From Hyphomicrobiales bacterium (GTDB lineage: Bacteria > Pseudomonadota > Alphaproteobacteria > Rhizobiales > Rhizobiaceae): a stretch of DNA of 64,000 nucleotides. Below, one piece after another: positions 44,820-51,390 of the stretch. The DNA lies in the NCBI GenBank assembly GCA_900470285.1, contig UCAG01000016.1, positions 1 through 64,000 of the forward strand. Reading direction: 5' to 3'. The notes under the pieces are model-generated. The model saw only the letters and a list, made by a program, of their open reading frames with translations. It was not told the DNA's origin and made no database searches. Position 1 is the first letter of the stretch, and each line of letters begins with the position of its first letter. Position numbers and translations under genes: made by a program.

Positions 44820-44844
44820 GGAACAATCATAAACCTGACGCATT
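44820..44844 (+). promoter_or_regulatory. Possible EcfG-type promoter before the 52-residue gene
   Basis: GGAAC, N16, CATT: one base from GGAAC-N16-CGTT, like the nepR promoter candidate. It lies 69 bases before ATG 44913. Confidence 0.4.
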
Positions 44845-44912
44845 AAAGCCGCATAATGCAGTGCATACCGTTATTGACTGACACCAATATCATCATGCTC
44901 CGGAGACAGTAG

Positions 44913-45071
44913 ATGTTGCACAAAGACATGCAAACCATTGAAACTGCCGCCCGTACCGCAATTGCGGGATCTTATGAACCGGAACAACAGGAAAACGCGG
45001 TCTTACGTACCGGTTTTTATGTGACAGCCGGTTGTATTCTGATTGCAGCTCTCATTCTCATGATTGCCTGA
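44913..45071 (+). CDS. Small membrane protein, 52 residues
   Basis: A short open frame with a polar, acidic N-terminal half (MLHKDMQTIETAARTAIAGS, then YEPEQQENAV) and one C-terminal membrane segment (TAGCILIAALILMIA). GGAG lies about 8 bases before the ATG. It is too short for usual gene-finding cut-offs. It stands at the head of a run of small membrane proteins in the GSR region and has a possible EcfG-type promoter. I do not recognise a family. Support is the binding site, the membrane segment and the context. Confidence 0.6.
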   Translation: MLHKDMQTIETAARTAIAGSYEPEQQENAVLRTGFYVTAGCILIAALILMIA

Positions 45072-45394
45072 CACTTCTGTACCTTCTCTCAGATTTCCAA
45101 CACAGGTTATGCTCAGCATATGCCTGCAATCTGACTTGCTGAGTATCACGCAGATGCCCGCTTCTCGCGCACGCATCCGCCTGTCTGTTTCTGCATGAGC
45201 TGAATTTGGAAACTGCGGCAATTAACCTTGGCAGCCGAATGTCTTCCGCACCGGCAACTGCTCTCTGGCGATGAATGCACGGAACCATTACGTTAAAGCC
45301 ACGTTATATTTCTGAACCCAGACAACATTACAGAGCAGTTTCAAAGAAAATGAAATTGCTTTGTAATTTGAAATTTCAGCTTCCGGAGGCATCC
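45072..45394. other. Intergenic region with an EcfG promoter
   Basis: No gene is visible in these 323 bases. The clear signal is the EcfG-type promoter at 45281-45305. Confidence 0.5.
45281..45305 (+). promoter_or_regulatory. EcfG-type promoter of the DUF883 gene pair
   Basis: GGAAC (45281-45285), 16 bases, CGTT (45302-45305): an exact match to the general stress response promoter of alphaproteobacteria. It lies 90 bases before the DUF883 gene start. Confidence 0.75.
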
Positions 45395-45724
45395 ATGGCT
45401 CGTGACACCAAAAACGTAAATAACATTCAGGACGACAGCACAGCAGAATTGCAAGCACAGATTGCCCAGCTTAAAGAGGATATTGCATCTATCGCCGCGA
45501 CCCTGACAGAAATGGGCTCACGAAAAATCAATCAGGCCAGACAAGATGCATCCGATGCCTATCAGGATATTTATGAACAGGGCGAAGATGCTCTGAGCTC
45601 CCTTAAAGACAGTGCCTGCTCCCTTGAGCAACAGGTCACCGATTATGTTCAGGAACGTCCGGTCACATCGATCGCTCTGGCTGCCGCGTTCGGTTATCTT
45701 TTCGCAGCGCTGACACGGCGCTGA
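45395..45724 (+). CDS. DUF883 (YqjD/ElaB-like) membrane protein
   Basis: A 109-residue protein. Residues about 15-80 are a charged coiled coil (TAELQAQIAQLKEDIASIAA and INQARQDASDAYQDIYEQGE), and the C-terminus is the DUF883 anchor ERPVTSIALAAAFGYLFAAL. E. coli YqjD and ElaB are stationary-phase, RpoS-controlled, inner-membrane proteins that bind ribosomes. ATG 45395 follows GGAGG; the longer frame from 45275 lacks a binding site. An exact EcfG promoter upstream parallels the RpoS control in E. coli. It is followed after 1 base by the YqjE-like gene. Confidence 0.9.
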   Translation: MARDTKNVNNIQDDSTAELQAQIAQLKEDIASIAATLTEMGSRKINQARQDASDAYQDIYEQGEDALSSLKDSACSLEQQVTDYVQERPVTSIALAAAFGYLFAALTRR

Positions 45725-45725
45725 T

Positions 45726-46184
45726 ATGCTGAAATTGTTCACACCGGTCATTTCAGCCATTATCGGCAGCGAAGTGCAGGCCGCAACGCAGCGTGCCAAA
45801 CGCAGTGCCATTCTCTATGCGATTATGGCTGTGGCGTTGCTCACAGGTGCGTTCTTTCTGCTGCTCGCAGTCTTTTTCATTCTCATGATGAAATATGGCC
45901 TGATTTTCGCAGCTCTGATTATCACAACCGGCTGTGTGGTACTGGCGATCATTGCCTTTATCGTCAACCGCGTAATGGATAAGGCTGAGAAACGCCGCCT
46001 TGAAGAAAGACGGGCTGCCATTGACACCAATGCAGCGCTCACAGCAGCAGCGGTTGCCGCCGTACCGACTTTACTCAGGAAACCGCTTTTAACTTTAGCA
46101 GTACCGCTTGCAGGGCTGATTGCAGTGACATTGCTGTCGCGGGACAAAAAATCCGGCAATAAAAAGCAGGATCAGGGCGGATAA
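45726..46184 (+). CDS. YqjE-like (phage holin superfamily) membrane protein
   Basis: A 152-residue protein with two long membrane segments (about 30-52 and 58-82: AIMAVALLTGAFFLLLAVFF and LIFAALIITTGCVVLAIIAF) and a third near the end (LLTLAVPLAGLIAVTLLS), then a basic tail. This fits the YqjE/actinobacterial holin-X family that accompanies YqjD. It starts one base after the DUF883 stop codon, so translation is coupled. The function is unknown; a stress-envelope role is inferred from the shared EcfG promoter. Confidence 0.85.
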   Translation: MLKLFTPVISAIIGSEVQAATQRAKRSAILYAIMAVALLTGAFFLLLAVFFILMMKYGLIFAALIITTGCVVLAIIAFIVNRVMDKAEKRRLEERRAAIDTNAALTAAAVAAVPTLLRKPLLTLAVPLAGLIAVTLLSRDKKSGNKKQDQGG

Positions 46185-46271
46185 GTTCCGCCCCTCCCTC
46201 CGCAGTGTTAGAGCCTCAGTGTTCGAGTCAAGGAGTTCAGTCCGCAAAGCCAACCCCTAAGGAGACCATTG

Positions 46272-46508
46272 ATGACCAGTTCGACAAAAGCACAGCTTAA
46301 TGAGATCCTCGCAGATATGTCCCTCACCAATCTGGACAAATCTGCTGCTATTCTGAAACTTCAGGAAGATGCGCGCGATCTTCAGCGCGCCGCAACAGAA
46401 GGCGGCATGGATCCCGATGACGGGCTGAACAAGGATCTGCGGGAAATTGAGCTTGCACTGGAAACTCTGGGTGTCAGTTCAGATGAGACCGGCGCAGCAA
46501 CGCTTTAG
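46272..46508 (+). CDS. Small hypothetical protein, 78 residues
   Basis: A short, acidic, helical protein (MTSSTKAQLNEILADMSLTN, then LDKSAAILKLQEDARDLQRA). It has no membrane segment or cysteine. ATG 46272 has GGAG at about 7 bases; TTG 46269 is an alternative. It lies 87 bases after the YqjE-like gene on the same strand and may be in the same transcript. I recognise no family. Confidence 0.65.
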   Translation: MTSSTKAQLNEILADMSLTNLDKSAAILKLQEDARDLQRAATEGGMDPDDGLNKDLREIELALETLGVSSDETGAATL

Positions 46509-46520
46509 AGCCTTTCCGCC

Positions 46521-46626
46521 AGAGCATTTCACAGTCAAGTTGGATCAACTTGATGCCCGTGATAATGCGACCAAATAAAGAATCTAGAGCGAGCGCTATG
46601 ATCCAATCTGGACGTAAACCGCTCCA
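46521..46626. repeat. Palindromic repeat, family F, copy 1
   Basis: It starts AGAGCATTTCACAGT, has the palindrome CAAGTTGGATCAACTTG (46536-46552), and ends CTGGACGTAAACCGCTC. The same element lies inverted at 56601-56739, where the palindrome is present twice. Confidence 0.85.
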
Positions 46627-46719
46627 GAGCATGTCGCGGATACGCTTTTGCTCCGGTTATAAACAACACTGCACAAAGCGATTTGTGCGGTGTTTTCATG
46701 AGCCCGCCAATCTGACCAG

Positions 46720-47625
46720 TCAGTTCTCACTCTGCGGCACCAATACGCGCAGTGCCGCCGGATGAATACGGATATCCAGTTCGGCCGGTAATGGCAGCAA
46801 TTCTCCGTCAACAGACATATACTGATGCGCTTTATGATTAAGGATTTTCAGCTGAACTGAGCGGGCCTGATCTTCCTCTATCGCCAGATTGCTGCGCCAT
46901 TGTCCGCGCGCAATATCCCAGAACAGCTTAAGCATGCCGCTGACAGGCAACGGCTTCGCCAGATAAAAACCGAGATGCCCTGTCTTCACATCCGGTGCGA
47001 CGGGCAGAACGCTGTCTCCGTAAGGATTGTTCGATACGGCAAGGGCAGAATACACTCCTTTAACGGAACGCCCGTCAATATCTGCAACCGCTCTCACACG
47101 CGGCACATGGGTAATCAGCTGCCCCATAGCGCGGAAATTCGCCCAGATTTTCCCTAAACGCGAGGCATAGCTGTATTTTTCACGATATCTGACCAGCATC
47201 GGATGGAGACCTATCGCCACCTGATGCACAAAGGACTGGCCGTTACAGGTGCCGATATCAACATTTTCGGCACCGGCCTTTGCCAATGCGTGAGTGGCCT
47301 CAGTAACATTTTGCGGAATATTCAGTGAGCGGGCAAAGAGGTTCATCGTACCGGCTGGCAGCACACCCAAGATTTTATCATTCTGCCAGGCCAGTGCAGC
47401 TGCGGCAGAAATCGTGCCGTCGCCGCCACCGGCCAGAAGCACATCATAATCATGATTTTGTGCGGACTTTTCCAAAGCGGCAAGAATATCATCACCATCT
47501 GTCAGCACACAGGACAGTTCATGCCCCTCAGCAGCAAAAGCAGCACATGCGTCATCAATAAACGCATCAATATTCATCGTCCGTAAAGTACCGCTTTGAC
47601 TGTTAAGAACAGCAATAATCTTCAA
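46720..47625 (-). CDS. Diacylglycerol kinase family protein
   Basis: A 301-residue lipid kinase-like protein with a DAGK catalytic domain: NSQSG near the start, the nucleotide-binding AGGGDGTISAAAA (about residue 64-75), LPAGTMNLFARSL and the C-terminal YMSVDGELL. It resembles YegS/BmrU-type lipid kinases. The lipid substrate is unknown. The reading frame starts with TTG 47625, which has GGAGA at 6 bases; the conserved KIIAVLNSQSG requires it. Confidence 0.9.
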   Translation of the reverse strand: MKIIAVLNSQSGTLRTMNIDAFIDDACAAFAAEGHELSCVLTDGDDILAALEKSAQNHDYDVLLAGGGDGTISAAAALAWQNDKILGVLPAGTMNLFARSLNIPQNVTEATHALAKAGAENVDIGTCNGQSFVHQVAIGLHPMLVRYREKYSYASRLGKIWANFRAMGQLITHVPRVRAVADIDGRSVKGVYSALAVSNNPYGDSVLPVAPDVKTGHLGFYLAKPLPVSGMLKLFWDIARGQWRSNLAIEEDQARSVQLKILNHKAHQYMSVDGELLPLPAELDIRIHPAALRVLVPQSEN

Positions 47626-47687
47626 ATAAATCTCCGCTCCGATTACAGATAATCAGCCGGTCACATTCTGACGATAATCAAATACGT

Positions 47688-48236
47688 TTAGAAAGAACGC
47701 ATCGTCACTTGTGACGACGTATCATCGGGGCCGTAATCGGAATTGCCTTTGACATCGAGCAACTCCTGCAACCGGACACGCGCACGGCTGACACGGCTCT
47801 TGATTGTACCGACAGCACATTCACAGATTTCCGCAGCTTCCTCATAGGAAAAACCGGAGGCTCCGATCAGAATAATCGCTTCACGCTGATCGTCCGGCAA
47901 TTCGTTCAGAGCCTTGCGAAAATCCTGCAAATCCAGCGATCCGTATTGTGAAGGGTGAACGGCCAGCCGCTCCGTATAAAGTCCGTCCGTATCCTGTATC
48001 TCACGGCCGCGCTTACGCATCTGGCTGTAAAATTCATTACGCAAAATCGTAAACAGCCAGGCTTTGATATTGGTGCCCATTTCGAAACTGTCGCGTTTGC
48101 CCCACGCTTTCATGATCGTATCCTGCACCAGATCATCAGCTTTATCCTGCTGACCTGATAAAGATACCGCGAAAGCCCGCAAGCCCGGCAAGGCCGCAAG
48201 CATCAGCCGCTTGAATTCGTCTCTCTCCTCCGCCAT
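47688..48236 (-). CDS. ecfG: General stress response sigma factor EcfG
   Basis: A 182-residue ECF15-type sigma factor. Region 2 (ADDLVQDTIMKAWGKRDSFE, NIKAWLFTILRNEFYSQMRK) and region 4 (LPDDQREAIILIGASGFSYE, VGTIKSRVSRARVRLQELL) are complete. It recognises GGAAC-N16/17-CGTT promoters of the stress regulon. NepR binds it, and PhyR frees it. ATG 48236 follows AAGGA at 9 bases; a TTG at 48245 overlaps the nepR stop codon. It is downstream of nepR in one operon, opposite phyR. Confidence 0.95.
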   Translation of the reverse strand: MAEERDEFKRLMLAALPGLRAFAVSLSGQQDKADDLVQDTIMKAWGKRDSFEMGTNIKAWLFTILRNEFYSQMRKRGREIQDTDGLYTERLAVHPSQYGSLDLQDFRKALNELPDDQREAIILIGASGFSYEEAAEICECAVGTIKSRVSRARVRLQELLDVKGNSDYGPDDTSSQVTMRSF

Positions 48237-48241
48237 TCCTG

Positions 48242-48499
48242 TCAATTCCTTGAATGAGAAGCAGATTTACGTTCAGCCTGATCCAGTTTCTCCAAAAGAT
48301 CAAGAAAACGGTCAGGAATAGTTTCATCCTGAATACTGGAATAAAGAGCACGCAATTTGGAACCGATCTCGGAATTGGGTCCCAGTTCATCGCCTTTATT
48401 CAAACTGCCTGCCTGCGAGCTGCCTTGCGCGGAATAATCGCGCGAAAATGAGGTCATAGCGTTGTCTTGATCCTGAAGCGGTTTCTTAGTGTTAGTCAT
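48242..48499 (-). CDS. nepR: Anti-sigma factor NepR
   Basis: An 85-residue protein. The C-terminal NepR domain IGSKLRALYSSIQDETIPDR then FLDLLEKLDQAE forms the two helices that clamp EcfG; the N-terminal part is disordered. It keeps EcfG inactive until phosphorylated PhyR takes it away. I chose ATG 48499 (MTNTKKPLQDQ); the frame is open to 48586, and ATG 48457 is also possible. It overlaps closely with ecfG and has an EcfG-like promoter upstream. Confidence 0.92.
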   Translation of the reverse strand: MTNTKKPLQDQDNAMTSFSRDYSAQGSSQAGSLNKGDELGPNSEIGSKLRALYSSIQDETIPDRFLDLLEKLDQAERKSASHSRN

Positions 48500-48628
48500 C
48501 TCAGTCGTATTCCGGTTAATGCCACCAGGGCTCAGCTGCGGCCCCCGATGCGGGTTTGATGCGGCCTTGGTGCGACCCTGTTTCAAGCACTAAAACCCTG
48601 CCCGATTGAGACGCTGTATCCAAGTCAT

Positions 48629-48653
48629 AATGCGGGCGTGAATAATTAGTTCC
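48629..48653 (-). promoter_or_regulatory. Candidate EcfG-type promoter of nepR-ecfG
   Basis: On the minus strand GGAAC (48653-48649), 16 bases, CATT (48632-48629). It has one mismatch to GGAAC-N16-CGTT. It would give autoregulation of the sigma factor operon, known in other alphaproteobacteria. Confidence 0.55.
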
Positions 48654-48661
48654 CAAACACA

Positions 48662-48686
48662 GGAACAATTTTTATAGTCAGCCGTT
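48662..48686 (+). promoter_or_regulatory. EcfG-type promoter of phyR
   Basis: GGAAC (48662-48666), 16 bases, CGTT (48683-48686), 52 bases before the phyR start. It is an exact match and lies back to back with the nepR-ecfG promoter. Confidence 0.8.
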
Positions 48687-48737
48687 AGAACCATAAACAG
48701 GCTGTAATCATGTCAGCCCATATAAATGGAGCATTCA

Positions 48738-49535
48738 ATGTCATTGTCCACGCGTATTGCACCACATTTGCCATATCTGCGCCGTTTCTCACGCGCCGTG
48801 ACCGGCTCTCAATCAGCAGGAGATGCATATGTTGCGGCAATTCTCGAAACTCTGATCGATGATATTTCTGTATTTCCCGAGGCCTCATCCGATAAGATAG
48901 CGCTCTATCGTCTTTATTCCAGTATTTTCGACCGCACTTCTGTTGAAATTCCGGAAACCGACTCCCAGCATGCATGGGAAAAACAGGCAGCGAATAATCT
49001 GGCAATGCTGACACCGCGTTCGCGTCAGGCTTTTCTTCTGGTTTCAGTTGAAGGCTTTAACGAAAAAGAAGCCGCAGAGATCATGCAGGAAGACGAGGCC
49101 GGTTTTTCAGCCTTGCTGACAGAGGCCTCGGAGCAGATTTCCCGTCACGTTGCCACCCGCATTCTGATTATCGAGGACGAACCGCTGATTGCCATGGATA
49201 TTGAGCAAATGGTGGAGACTCTGGGACATGAAGTTGTGGGCATTGCGCGCACACATCAGGAAGCCCTGACACTTTATAAGGCAGAGAAACCGTCAATGGT
49301 TTTGGCTGATATTCAGCTTGCAGACGGCAGTTCAGGTATCGATGCCGTCAATGATATTCTCAAAAGTGATACAATTCCGGTCATCTTTATCACTGCATTT
49401 CCCGAGCGTCTTCTCACAGGAGAACGTTCGGAACCGACCTTCCTTGTCACCAAACCGTTCAATCCGGATATGGTGAAGGCACTTATCAGTCAGGCTCTGT
49501 TCTTCGAAGAGGGTTCGCTGGCAAGAGCATCATAA
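48738..49535 (+). CDS. phyR: Anti-anti-sigma response regulator PhyR
   Basis: A 265-residue protein with an N-terminal sigma-like domain (about 1-135, LPYLRRFSRAVTGSQSAGDA and LTPRSRQAFLLVSVEGFNEK) and a C-terminal receiver domain (about 141-260). The phosphoacceptor is Asp191 (MVLADIQLADG); the acidic pair lies in IIEDEP and the conserved Lys in VTKPFNPD. On phosphorylation it opens and binds NepR, releasing EcfG. ATG 48738 follows TGGAGC at 6 bases. It is divergent from nepR-ecfG with an exact EcfG promoter upstream, so the circuit feeds back on itself. Confidence 0.97.
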   Translation: MSLSTRIAPHLPYLRRFSRAVTGSQSAGDAYVAAILETLIDDISVFPEASSDKIALYRLYSSIFDRTSVEIPETDSQHAWEKQAANNLAMLTPRSRQAFLLVSVEGFNEKEAAEIMQEDEAGFSALLTEASEQISRHVATRILIIEDEPLIAMDIEQMVETLGHEVVGIARTHQEALTLYKAEKPSMVLADIQLADGSSGIDAVNDILKSDTIPVIFITAFPERLLTGERSEPTFLVTKPFNPDMVKALISQALFFEEGSLARAS

Positions 49536-49576
49536 TCAGCAGAATAACGGGGAAACGGAACTGAAAGGCTTTAGCC

Positions 49577-49601
49577 GGAACCAAAACCCGCAACAGACGT
49601 T
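49577..49601 (+). promoter_or_regulatory. EcfG-type promoter of the DUF1328 gene
   Basis: GGAAC (49577-49581), 16 bases, CGTT (49598-49601), 83 bases before the small gene's start. Exact match. Confidence 0.75.
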
Positions 49602-49683
49602 ATTTTAACATGCAATGACCTTCAAAAATCTGGTCATTCCATAAGGCGGGCAATTCCTTGTCTGCCTGCAAGAGGAGGTTGAC

Positions 49684-49848
49684 ATGTTATATTATGCTGT
49701 TGTTTTTCTGATTATTGCCATTATTGCCGGTGCATTGGGCTTTGGTGGTATTGCCGGTGCATCAACAGGCATAGCGCAAATTCTGTTCTTTATTTTCCTC
49801 GGTTTACTGCTGCTGTCACTGATCGCCAGCATTATAAGGAAAGCATAA
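49684..49848 (+). CDS. DUF1328 small membrane protein (YtjA-like)
   Basis: A 54-residue protein with two membrane segments ([20 protein letters not shown] and [20 protein letters not shown]), joined by a GGIAGASTG turn; it matches the DUF1328 family. AGGAGG lies 5-6 bases before ATG 49684. Its E. coli relative YtjA is of unknown function. It is too short for usual cut-offs. With its EcfG promoter it is a likely stress-regulon member and may be co-transcribed with the kinase 127 bases downstream. Confidence 0.88.
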
Positions 49849-49974
49849 ATGCTGCAAAGCAATCCGATCCGAAAACATCTGAACGGGACGCCGGCGACGC
49901 GTCCCGAACCTGTCTTGTGCGGAGCAGTTCTGTACCGCAGTTTATGCCGGTTTTAAGTACAGAAAGCACAAACT

Positions 49975-51057
49975 ATGGCTCCTACTTCGCCCGTTTCAGG
50001 ATATAGCAGCGCCGCTCAGATCCGGTTGCGTTCTATGTTGCGAGCCATAAGAAACAGTAATGTTTCGGTTTTCTATCAGACCACGGATATGAATTATACC
50101 TGGGTGGAAAATCTGCCGGAGTTCTGGCTTTTGCCATGGCGCACGGGCATCAGCGAAAATGACCTGATGCCCAAAGACATAGCAGCCAGACTGACAACAG
50201 CCAAAGACCAGCTGCTTGCAACCGGTGATGCCCAACGTCTGGAAATTTCTTTTCCCGACAAGAAAAATCCCCGCTGGTACGAGTTCTTCATCGATTCAGA
50301 TAAGGATGAAAGCGGAGAAACTATCGGCATTGTCACCACTGCCGTTGAAATAAGCGAACTGAAACACCGCGAACAGGTTCTCAAAATATTGTTGCGCGAA
50401 GTCAGCCACCGCTCAAAAAATCTGCTGGCCATCATTCAGAGTATCGCCATGCAGACAGCACGGTTCTCCGGCTCGGTGGATCAGTTCTTGCAAAAATTCC
50501 GCGGCCGTCTCTATTCCCTTTCCAATTCGCAGGATCTGGTAACGGATTCCAACTGGCATGGTGCAGCCTTTCGGGAATTGCTGCATTCACAGCTGGAAAA
50601 ATACATCCACCCCAAAGACCCGCGCCTGACAATTACCGGTAAAGATGTTTATCTTTTCCCCGGAGCAGCGCTGCATGTCGGCCTTGCTTTCCACGAATTG
50701 ATTGTCAATTCCGCTTCTTATGGGGCATTGGCCTGCGAAAACGGTAATCTGACAATTTCAGCAGAGCTGGAGCCTGACGGTGAAGGCGAGATGGATCTGA
50801 TTATTCACTGGAAGGAAACAAGTCCTGCAACGGAAGACAATGTGTCAGGCCGTCCGCCGGATATATTATCTGCAGAAAACCATATCCGTGATGAAGCATC
50901 AGACCTTAAAATAAAATCCTATGAAACATCCCGCTTCGGCAGCGCAGTTTTACTGCGGATCGTTCCTCAGGCTGTCAGCGGTACTGCCTGCTACAGAATT
51001 GAAGACAAGAGCGTAGAATATTATCTGCGCATTCCCCACCGGAATTTTGATTTTTAA
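49975..51057 (+). CDS. PAS domain HWE/HisKA2-type histidine kinase (candidate GSR kinase)
   Basis: A 360-residue cytosolic kinase with no membrane segment. A PAS domain (about 20-130) is followed by the dimerisation/phosphorylation helix with His145 (REVSHRSKNLLAIIQSIA) and an HATPase part with FHELIVNSASYGALACENG (N box) and RFGSAVLLRIVP. This HWE/HisKA2 type phosphorylates PhyR in other species. It is next to phyR, so it is the natural candidate, though its C-terminal ATP motifs are diverged (RFGS for the usual GFGS). ATG 49975 has only a weak binding site. Confidence 0.9.
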   Translation: MAPTSPVSGYSSAAQIRLRSMLRAIRNSNVSVFYQTTDMNYTWVENLPEFWLLPWRTGISENDLMPKDIAARLTTAKDQLLATGDAQRLEISFPDKKNPRWYEFFIDSDKDESGETIGIVTTAVEISELKHREQVLKILLREVSHRSKNLLAIIQSIAMQTARFSGSVDQFLQKFRGRLYSLSNSQDLVTDSNWHGAAFRELLHSQLEKYIHPKDPRLTITGKDVYLFPGAALHVGLAFHELIVNSASYGALACENGNLTISAELEPDGEGEMDLIIHWKETSPATEDNVSGRPPDILSAENHIRDEASDLKIKSYETSRFGSAVLLRIVPQAVSGTACYRIEDKSVEYYLRIPHRNFDF

Positions 51058-51192: not shown

Positions 51193-51320
51193 TAAAAAAT
51201 AGCGCGCTCCGGAACAGGAGCTCCGTGAGCGCGCGGACCGGGGATTAGGGGGCGTACCCGCGGTCGGTGAAAGGCCGAACTGTGAGGGGGCGGAAGGTCA
51301 GCCTTTCACAAAGTTCATAA
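51193..51320 (-). ncRNA. Candidate small RNA with three hairpins, C-rich loops and a terminator
   Basis: On the minus strand, in order: hairpin 1, GTGAAAGGC/GCCTTTCAC (51309-51267) with a loop holding CCGCCCCCTCAC; hairpin 2, GACCG and GGG with CCC and CGGTC (51265-51236) with a loop holding CGCCCCCTAAT; hairpin 3, GCGCGCTC/GAGCGCGC (51234-51202) with inner CGGA/TCCG and loop GCTCCTGT, then TATTTTTTAT. The last is a good terminator. C-rich loops resemble anti-Shine-Dalgarno sRNAs of Rhizobiales such as the alpha-r14 type; membership is not shown. No protein frame explains the structure. It lies downstream of the Fur-type gene, same strand. Confidence 0.65.
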
Positions 51321-51390
51321 CGCCTGTCCTGGCAATAAGTTTCACATGAAACTGCATTATTTAAAAATAAATTTTGAAATGCGCAGGAAT

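Follow-up and report, generated by a model that had tools for sequence, protein, structure and literature searches.

What does a set of GGAAC-N16-CGTT motifs around a phyR gene say about the genes that follow them? In the 64,000-nucleotide (nt) stretch of Hyphomicrobiales DNA analyzed here (the window; contig UCAG01000016.1, positions 1 to 64,000), an earlier note had taken such motifs to mark a regulon cluster that joins the core of the general stress response (GSR) to small membrane proteins. In the established GSR mechanism, stress-sensing HWE histidine kinases phosphorylate PhyR, which then binds the anti-sigma factor NepR; this releases the extracytoplasmic function (ECF) sigma factor EcfG to act at GGAAC-N16/17-CGTT promoters. 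We conclude that the window very probably holds the known locus for GSR control in a Pseudochrobactrum, beside which lie output genes and a GsrN-like small RNA (sRNA). The locus is of a known kind and well preserved; additions to it are the sRNA and a family of 52-residue proteins (s52). The proposed link between GSR core and small membrane proteins is supported, as the core families score above cut-off, the cores of the sites are invariant in the genus, and the sites recur in relatives.

The control genes phyR, nepR and ecfG and the HWE kinase adjoining phyR were assigned by family models (Table 1). PhyR has both its sigma-like and its receiver domain, the latter matching PF00072 as a whole domain. 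NepR is the single match in a search of the whole genome; against the NCBIfam model NF051865 it scores 25.5 bits (cut-off 100). The genome holding the window is a draft of 3.81 Mb in 23 contigs, and its PhyR shares 100% identity with the protein of Pseudochrobactrum saccharolyticum CCUG 33852, which identifies the genome, by sequence, as P. saccharolyticum-like; four other Pseudochrobactrum-like loci have phyR identities of 91-93% to that of the window. One Pseudochrobactrum GSR locus, with a PhyR 91% identical and no difference in gene order, lies on a record titled Bacillus subtilis strain SK6B4 (L064, JAHREI010000006.1), which must therefore be mislabelled or contaminated. For recurrence, we used the 80 phyR loci closest to that of the window (the best 80 of 571 confirmed), and counted a site if it lay within 300 nt before a gene. 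A strict site is GGAAC-N16-CGTT, and the CRTT form covers CGTT and CATT.

Table 1. Features of the window on both strands, with the evidence for each (invariant bases: window and four other Pseudochrobactrum loci)
Feature	Positions	Strand	Evidence
Putative EcfG-type promoter, CATT variant, before s52	44820..44844	+	core 9/9 vs 48/96 nearby bases invariant
s52, 52-residue protein, one C-terminal hydrophobic stretch	44913..45071	+	no Pfam/NCBIfam family; relatives at same place
Putative EcfG-type promoter GGAAC-N16-CGTT, before DUF883-like gene	45281..45305	+	core 9/9 vs 36/96; strict site in 41/65 related loci
DUF883-like protein, 109 residues	45395..45724	+	DUF883_C 19.1 bits, cut-off 27
YqjE-like (Phage_holin_3_6) membrane protein, next to DUF883-like gene	45726..46184	+	25.3 bits, cut-off 28.4
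ecfG, ECF sigma factor	47688..48245	-	PF22029 48.2 bits, cut-off 27; NF009169 353 bits, cut-off 321
nepR, anti-sigma factor	48242..48499	-	PF18557 60.7 bits, cut-off 25.7 (longer frame scanned)
Putative EcfG-type promoter, CATT variant, before nepR-ecfG	48629..48653	-	core 9/9 vs 71/96; CATT in 63/65 paired loci
Putative EcfG-type promoter GGAAC-N16-CGTT, before phyR	48662..48686	+	core 9/9 vs 75/96; strict site in 68/79 related loci
phyR, anti-anti-sigma response regulator	48738..49535	+	PF22029, PF22233, PF00072 above cut-off; NF006623 383.6 bits, cut-off 240
Putative EcfG-type promoter GGAAC-N16-CGTT, before DUF1328 gene	49577..49601	+	core 9/9 vs 27/96; strict site in 48/50 related loci
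DUF1328 small membrane protein, 54 residues	49684..49848	+	PF07043 55.1 bits, cut-off 27
HWE histidine kinase with PAS domain, adjoining phyR	49975..51057	+	Pfam scan
GsrN/ReC64-like sRNA: two hairpins with C-rich loops and a terminator-like hairpin	51195..51318	-	fold, covariance model, place
Near-consensus EcfG-type site GAAAC-N16-CGTT, before the sRNA	51319..51343	-	-35 and -10 identical in 5/5 other Pseudochrobactrum loci

All five sites named in the earlier note were found, each pointing at its gene: strict sites before phyR, the DUF883-like/YqjE-like pair and the DUF1328 gene, and CATT variants before nepR and s52. Their distance from the genes, given there as 52-130 bases, was off by no more than one base: from the end of the -10 to the start codon there are 68 nt (s52), 89 nt (DUF883-like), 51 nt (phyR), 82 nt (DUF1328) and 129 nt (nepR). 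That list ended at 49848 and was correct up to there; a sixth site and its RNA further along had been overlooked. The nepR and phyR sites face away from each other, their -35 elements 8 nt apart, an arrangement that would feed both phyR and nepR-ecfG and so allow self-amplification. Further EcfG promoters would drive s52, the DUF883-like/YqjE-like pair and the DUF1328 gene, and the GAAAC-N16-CGTT site would drive the sRNA. According to a review, GSR promoters drive both nepR-ecfG and the divergent phyR (PMC8103513), and in Sinorhizobium meliloti the mapped starts of rsiA1 and rsiB1 lie downstream of RpoE2 promoters (PMC3616915). In Rhizobium etli, ecfG1 controls its own expression, and the motif there is GGAAC-N16-CGTT (PMC3892343).

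Conservation singles out the sites from their surroundings. The nine core bases are invariant at each of the five sites in the window and four other Pseudochrobactrum loci, compared with 27 to 75 of the 96 other bases within 40 nt (Table 1). Strict sites recur before phyR, the DUF883-like gene and the DUF1328 gene of the closest loci, and a CRTT site precedes nepR in 55/79 of them, while the reversed pattern gave 0 and five permuted patterns gave 0 or 1 per gene; other neighbors had a site more rarely (DAGK, 6/28; a 78-residue gene, 2/8). Paired divergent nepR/phyR sites were present in 65 of the 76 loci with a divergent nepR, and the closest loci in total (1.27 Mb) hold 312 strict sites and 21 reversed ones. 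Thus the phyR, DUF883-like and DUF1328 sites are correctly placed, conserved matches to GGAAC-N16/17-CGTT. The CATT sites (nepR and s52) and the GAAAC site (sRNA) are one base off consensus and conserved in the genus, and for the two CATT sites it is this sequence conservation, not the motif match, that makes them candidate promoters.

As strings, by contrast with their position and conservation, the sites say little. The window has three strict sites, where shuffled sequences average 0.90 (at least as many in 5 of 100 shuffles), and five CRTT sites, where they average 1.92 (at least as many in 4 of 100); these counts are weak evidence. A genome-wide scan, proposed in the earlier note as a gauge of chance matches, gave no raw enrichment, with 58 strict and 76 reversed matches, but placement did separate the two: 15/58 strict sites were intergenic with a called start at most 300 nt downstream (starts being taken from a simple home-made gene caller), compared to 1 of the 30 reversed matches that were classified (Fisher test, p = 0.007; p = 0.02 without the three window sites). 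Those three are among the 15. Of the other well-placed strict sites, nine precede genes whose products match the Pfam families CsbD, Ferritin (which we take to be Dps-like), Sigma70 regions 2 and 4 (presumably RpoH-like), Lipocalin_2, Transgly_assoc, Lactamase_B, SH3_3, DUF2232 and DUF883_C. Of the remaining three (L029, L160 and L167), L160 and L167, whose genes we take for those of an ABC transporter ATPase and a subunit of ATP synthase, may be chance matches.

Could the sites serve a sigma factor other than EcfG? The genome encodes a second ECF sigma factor (G000:C5:50613-50762), whose region 2 is of the PhyR_sigma2 type and resembles PhyR and EcfG, and we take the following gene to encode an anti-sigma factor. 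That this factor rather than EcfG uses the sites is nevertheless very improbable, given that they surround the EcfG switch itself and that their motif is the EcfG motif published for R. etli and Sphingopyxis (PMC3892343, PMC7083833). We infer that all genes bearing a site may be EcfG targets, transcribed from these sites by EcfG.

Several observations weigh against so wide a set of targets. The recurrence counts are not independent, since the 80 loci are related to one another; the motif is not enriched genome-wide in raw numbers; and of the 69 CATT sites elsewhere in the genome that were classified (70 were taken, one of which could not be placed), only 5 are intergenic and followed by a start at most 300 nt away, so that a CATT match alone says little. 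In Brucella-group-like loci, none of 20 s52 relatives (L066 counted in) has an EcfG site before it, and among the closest phyR loci no EcfG site was found before the DUF883 gene of the Brucella group. Instead, 18 of these 20 loci (L067-L076, for example) share a strongly conserved element, TTGCA...CAAATCAG...TGAT, which lies 81-141 nt upstream of the s52 start and could be a promoter of the sigma-70 type together with the site of a regulator. EcfG control of s52 thus was probably gained or lost between lineages, and the EcfG link of both s52 and DUF883 appears lineage-specific.

These data would fit a narrower regulon, in which EcfG acts only on phyR, nepR-ecfG and the DUF1328 gene, with s52 and the DUF883-like gene run by another sigma factor and the sites in front of them chance matches or relics. 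We regard this as quite unlikely. The cores at both sites are invariant across the genus, CGTT sites precede the s52 relatives of 20 Devosia-type loci, and the strict site recurs before the DUF883-like gene (Table 1), with another in front of the second DUF883 protein of the genome. Overall, a CRTT site lies before s52 in 26 of the 40 listed loci (CATT in five Pseudochrobactrum loci and one other, CGTT in 20); among the site-less rows, L090 is not the true gene. On position and conservation rather than string counts, the sites are likely real.

The small membrane proteins behind these sites differ in how firmly they can be named. DUF1328 was correctly identified, scoring above cut-off. For the names DUF883 and YqjE, the proteins of the window fall below cut-off, but relatives support the assignment: 10/14 relatives of the DUF883-like protein match DUF883_C at E 0.01 (best 5.2e-8), and 12/13 YqjE-like members match Phage_holin_3_6 at E 0.01. 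No convincing Pfam or NCBIfam match was found for s52, even when 15 family members were scanned. Its relatives share a conserved N-terminal E-x-A-x-R stretch and one C-terminal hydrophobic helix, and in genomes of the Brucella group and of Devosia type they too precede DUF883 and YqjE. The roles of these small proteins, as of the sRNA, are inferred. Devosia-type loci (e.g. L081 and L099) have an extra gene for a tiny membrane protein of ~52 residues, absent from the window, between s52 and the DUF883-like gene; we presume the product to be DUF3309-like. A 78-residue open reading frame (46272-46508) follows the YqjE-like gene; it has no Pfam or NCBIfam match, and relatives are present in 8 of the 80 loci, three of them outside Pseudochrobactrum (L077, L113 and L115).

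The CATT in the nepR -10 is all but fixed among the closest loci. In 65 paired loci, 61 have CATT before nepR and CGTT before phyR, two have CATT and TGTT, and two have CGTT on both sides. For Sphingopyxis, changing CGTT to CATT lowered and changing CATT to CGTT raised transcription in vitro, CATT being used more weakly (PMC7083833). A nepR site of this kind may therefore damp self-activation. We rejected a conserved asymmetry of strong and weak promoters as a general rule, which samples not picked by PhyR likeness do not bear out. In a class sample of 27 loci, 15 had a site on the nepR strand (12 CGTT, two GGTT, one TGTT and no CATT). In an order sample, 40 of 65 loci had CGTT alone, seven CATT alone, five GGTT or TGTT alone, two were mixed and 11 were without counted forms, which did not include AATT (the 65 come from 70 matching genomes, excluding our own, G029 and three below the cut-off). 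A sample of the genome's own family (the best 29 of 92 matching genomes) gave 12 CGTT, five CATT, four other and eight without a site, and the divergent strand itself had CATT in seven. Since none of these samples shows a CATT rule, CATT before nepR is a trait of the nearest lineages.

On the far side of the kinase, the GAAAC-N16-CGTT site is followed by a sequence predicted to form a stable RNA, with a folding energy of -58.6 kcal/mol (z = -5.7; matched by 0 of 200 shuffles) and a C-rich loop exposed close to the 5´ end. Of the 64 loci with enough sequence, 36 have a GGAAC-N16/17-CRTT site on the minus strand past the kinase, mostly 214-266 nt from the kinase end, and in relatives it is followed by a conserved RNA with C-rich hairpin loops. 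In R. etli, the sRNA ReC64 lies beyond the kinase tcrY, its start, mapped by 5´ rapid amplification of cDNA ends (5´-RACE), follows an EcfG motif, and its expression depends on ecfG1 (PMC3892343); GsrN-like RNAs have been predicted near the GSR loci of R. etli, S. meliloti and Brucella abortus (PMC5869019). With its C-rich loops, the RNA of the window would be expected to target G-rich stretches of mRNAs.

This RNA could belong to the upstream gene (51828-51391), as its 3´ end with the terminator, and be no separate EcfG-driven transcript, as it lies on the same strand as that gene, the site starts 47 nt past the stop codon, and the -35 is GAAAC. The full GGAAC-N16/17-CRTT site at the same place in other loci, the presence of the site in all five other Pseudochrobactrum loci, and the mapped, ecfG1-dependent ReC64 downstream of tcrY (PMC3892343) make such an origin unlikely. 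A sigma-70-type scan gave no promoter on the RNA's strand; the same scan found one terminator-like site there, with 0.6 expected by shuffling.

Covariance models gave a mixed picture of homology. No Rfam family reached its gathering score with the RNA, and a weak match to sX13 (15.3 bits; gathering score 50) was not counted as membership. Pseudochrobactrum and Brucella-group RNAs were aligned separately because a joint MAFFT alignment failed to line up the hairpins. In the Brucella-group alignment, 11 of 22 pairs are changed on both sides (0 of 500 shuffles), with one of five measures, further pair types, not outstanding (55 of 500 shuffles); in the Pseudochrobactrum alignment, no pair is changed on both sides. 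A model built from 17 Brucella-group loci gave eight hits in 1.03 Mb, of which the best three are the RNAs of L062, the window and L061 (E 0.017-0.023), the window itself being a weak match (24.0 bits, E 0.018). Under strict filters, a search of 151 family genomes with this model gave hits at E 0.001 in two of them and none in our own. Apart from the loci it was built on, the Pseudochrobactrum model picked up the RNA of L079 (E 0.012) and, weakly, that of L073 (E 0.75); in the genome of the window it found a single copy. Against the likeness to GsrN stand the GAAAC -35, which departs from GGAAC in the window and all five other Pseudochrobactrum loci, the nearly equal scores of hits inside kinase genes (L132, 22.6 bits, E 0.036; L121, 21.8 bits, E 0.052), and the failure of the Brucella-group model to find the RNAs of L063-L065 and Rhizobium. 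With kinase-gene hits so close and these RNAs missed, it is chiefly place, promoter and C-rich loops that speak for a homology of the sRNA.

The kinase has no CRTT site of its own in any of 5/5 Pseudochrobactrum loci; in the closest loci, it is preceded by a site in 20/65, none of them in Pseudochrobactrum. It may be expressed by read-through from the DUF1328 promoter. Between the DUF1328 gene and the kinase lies a GC-rich hairpin without a T-run (49849-49974). Far from the locus, the serC leader RNA (62218-62166, minus strand) matches RF00517 at 59.4 bits (gathering score 35).

More broadly, phyR in Hyphomicrobiales might be the center of a self-contained stress module, in which one switch that fires itself, a GsrN-like sRNA and tiny membrane proteins, including the undescribed s52 family, lie within ~6.5 kb, with promoters rewired from one lineage to another (s52 has EcfG sites in Pseudochrobactrum and Devosia-type loci and another conserved element in the Brucella group); we offer this tentatively, as a possibility short of a probability. 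The locus illustrates how position and conservation can make a motif readable even where its genome-wide count does not exceed chance. It also yields a short list of likely direct GSR outputs, among which the sRNA and the s52 family are concrete candidates to test. Among the literature matches listed, from a search that covered neither supplements nor most subscription papers, those on EcfG, PhyR or CsbD do not mention DUF883 or DUF1328, those on DUF1328 with the general stress response are by title not on alphaproteobacteria, and none on Pseudochrobactrum and stress response is by title on the GSR.

With regard to known systems, the window shares with the alphaproteobacterial PhyR-NepR-EcfG (ECF15) locus (PMC8103513) its gene set, the divergent order, the back-to-back GSR promoters and the adjacent HWE kinase. 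It differs in nothing basic, the CATT in the nepR -10 being usual only among the closest loci. Like GsrN of Caulobacter and ReC64 of R. etli, its RNA is found beside the GSR locus with an EcfG-type site and C-rich loops (PMC5869019, PMC3892343), and ReC64 has the same place beyond the kinase (PMC3892343), while the RNA of the window has a GAAAC -35 and two C-rich loops with a terminator-like hairpin, and is likened to these sRNAs by place and architecture. The small membrane proteins have like-named counterparts in enteric bacteria, among them the DUF883 proteins YqjD and ElaB. Cells lacking RpoS make neither YqjD nor ElaB (PMC6389858), and YtjA (DUF1328) is among the small proteins under sigma-S in Salmonella (PMC5437024). 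DUF883, DUF1328 and CsbD, the last encoded elsewhere in this genome, are families also controlled by the unrelated RpoS, and outputs shared by RpoS and the GSR point to a common membrane need in stressed cells. In both settings, the families would be under a general stress sigma factor, but the one expected in the window, EcfG, belongs to the ECF type and is under partner-switching control.

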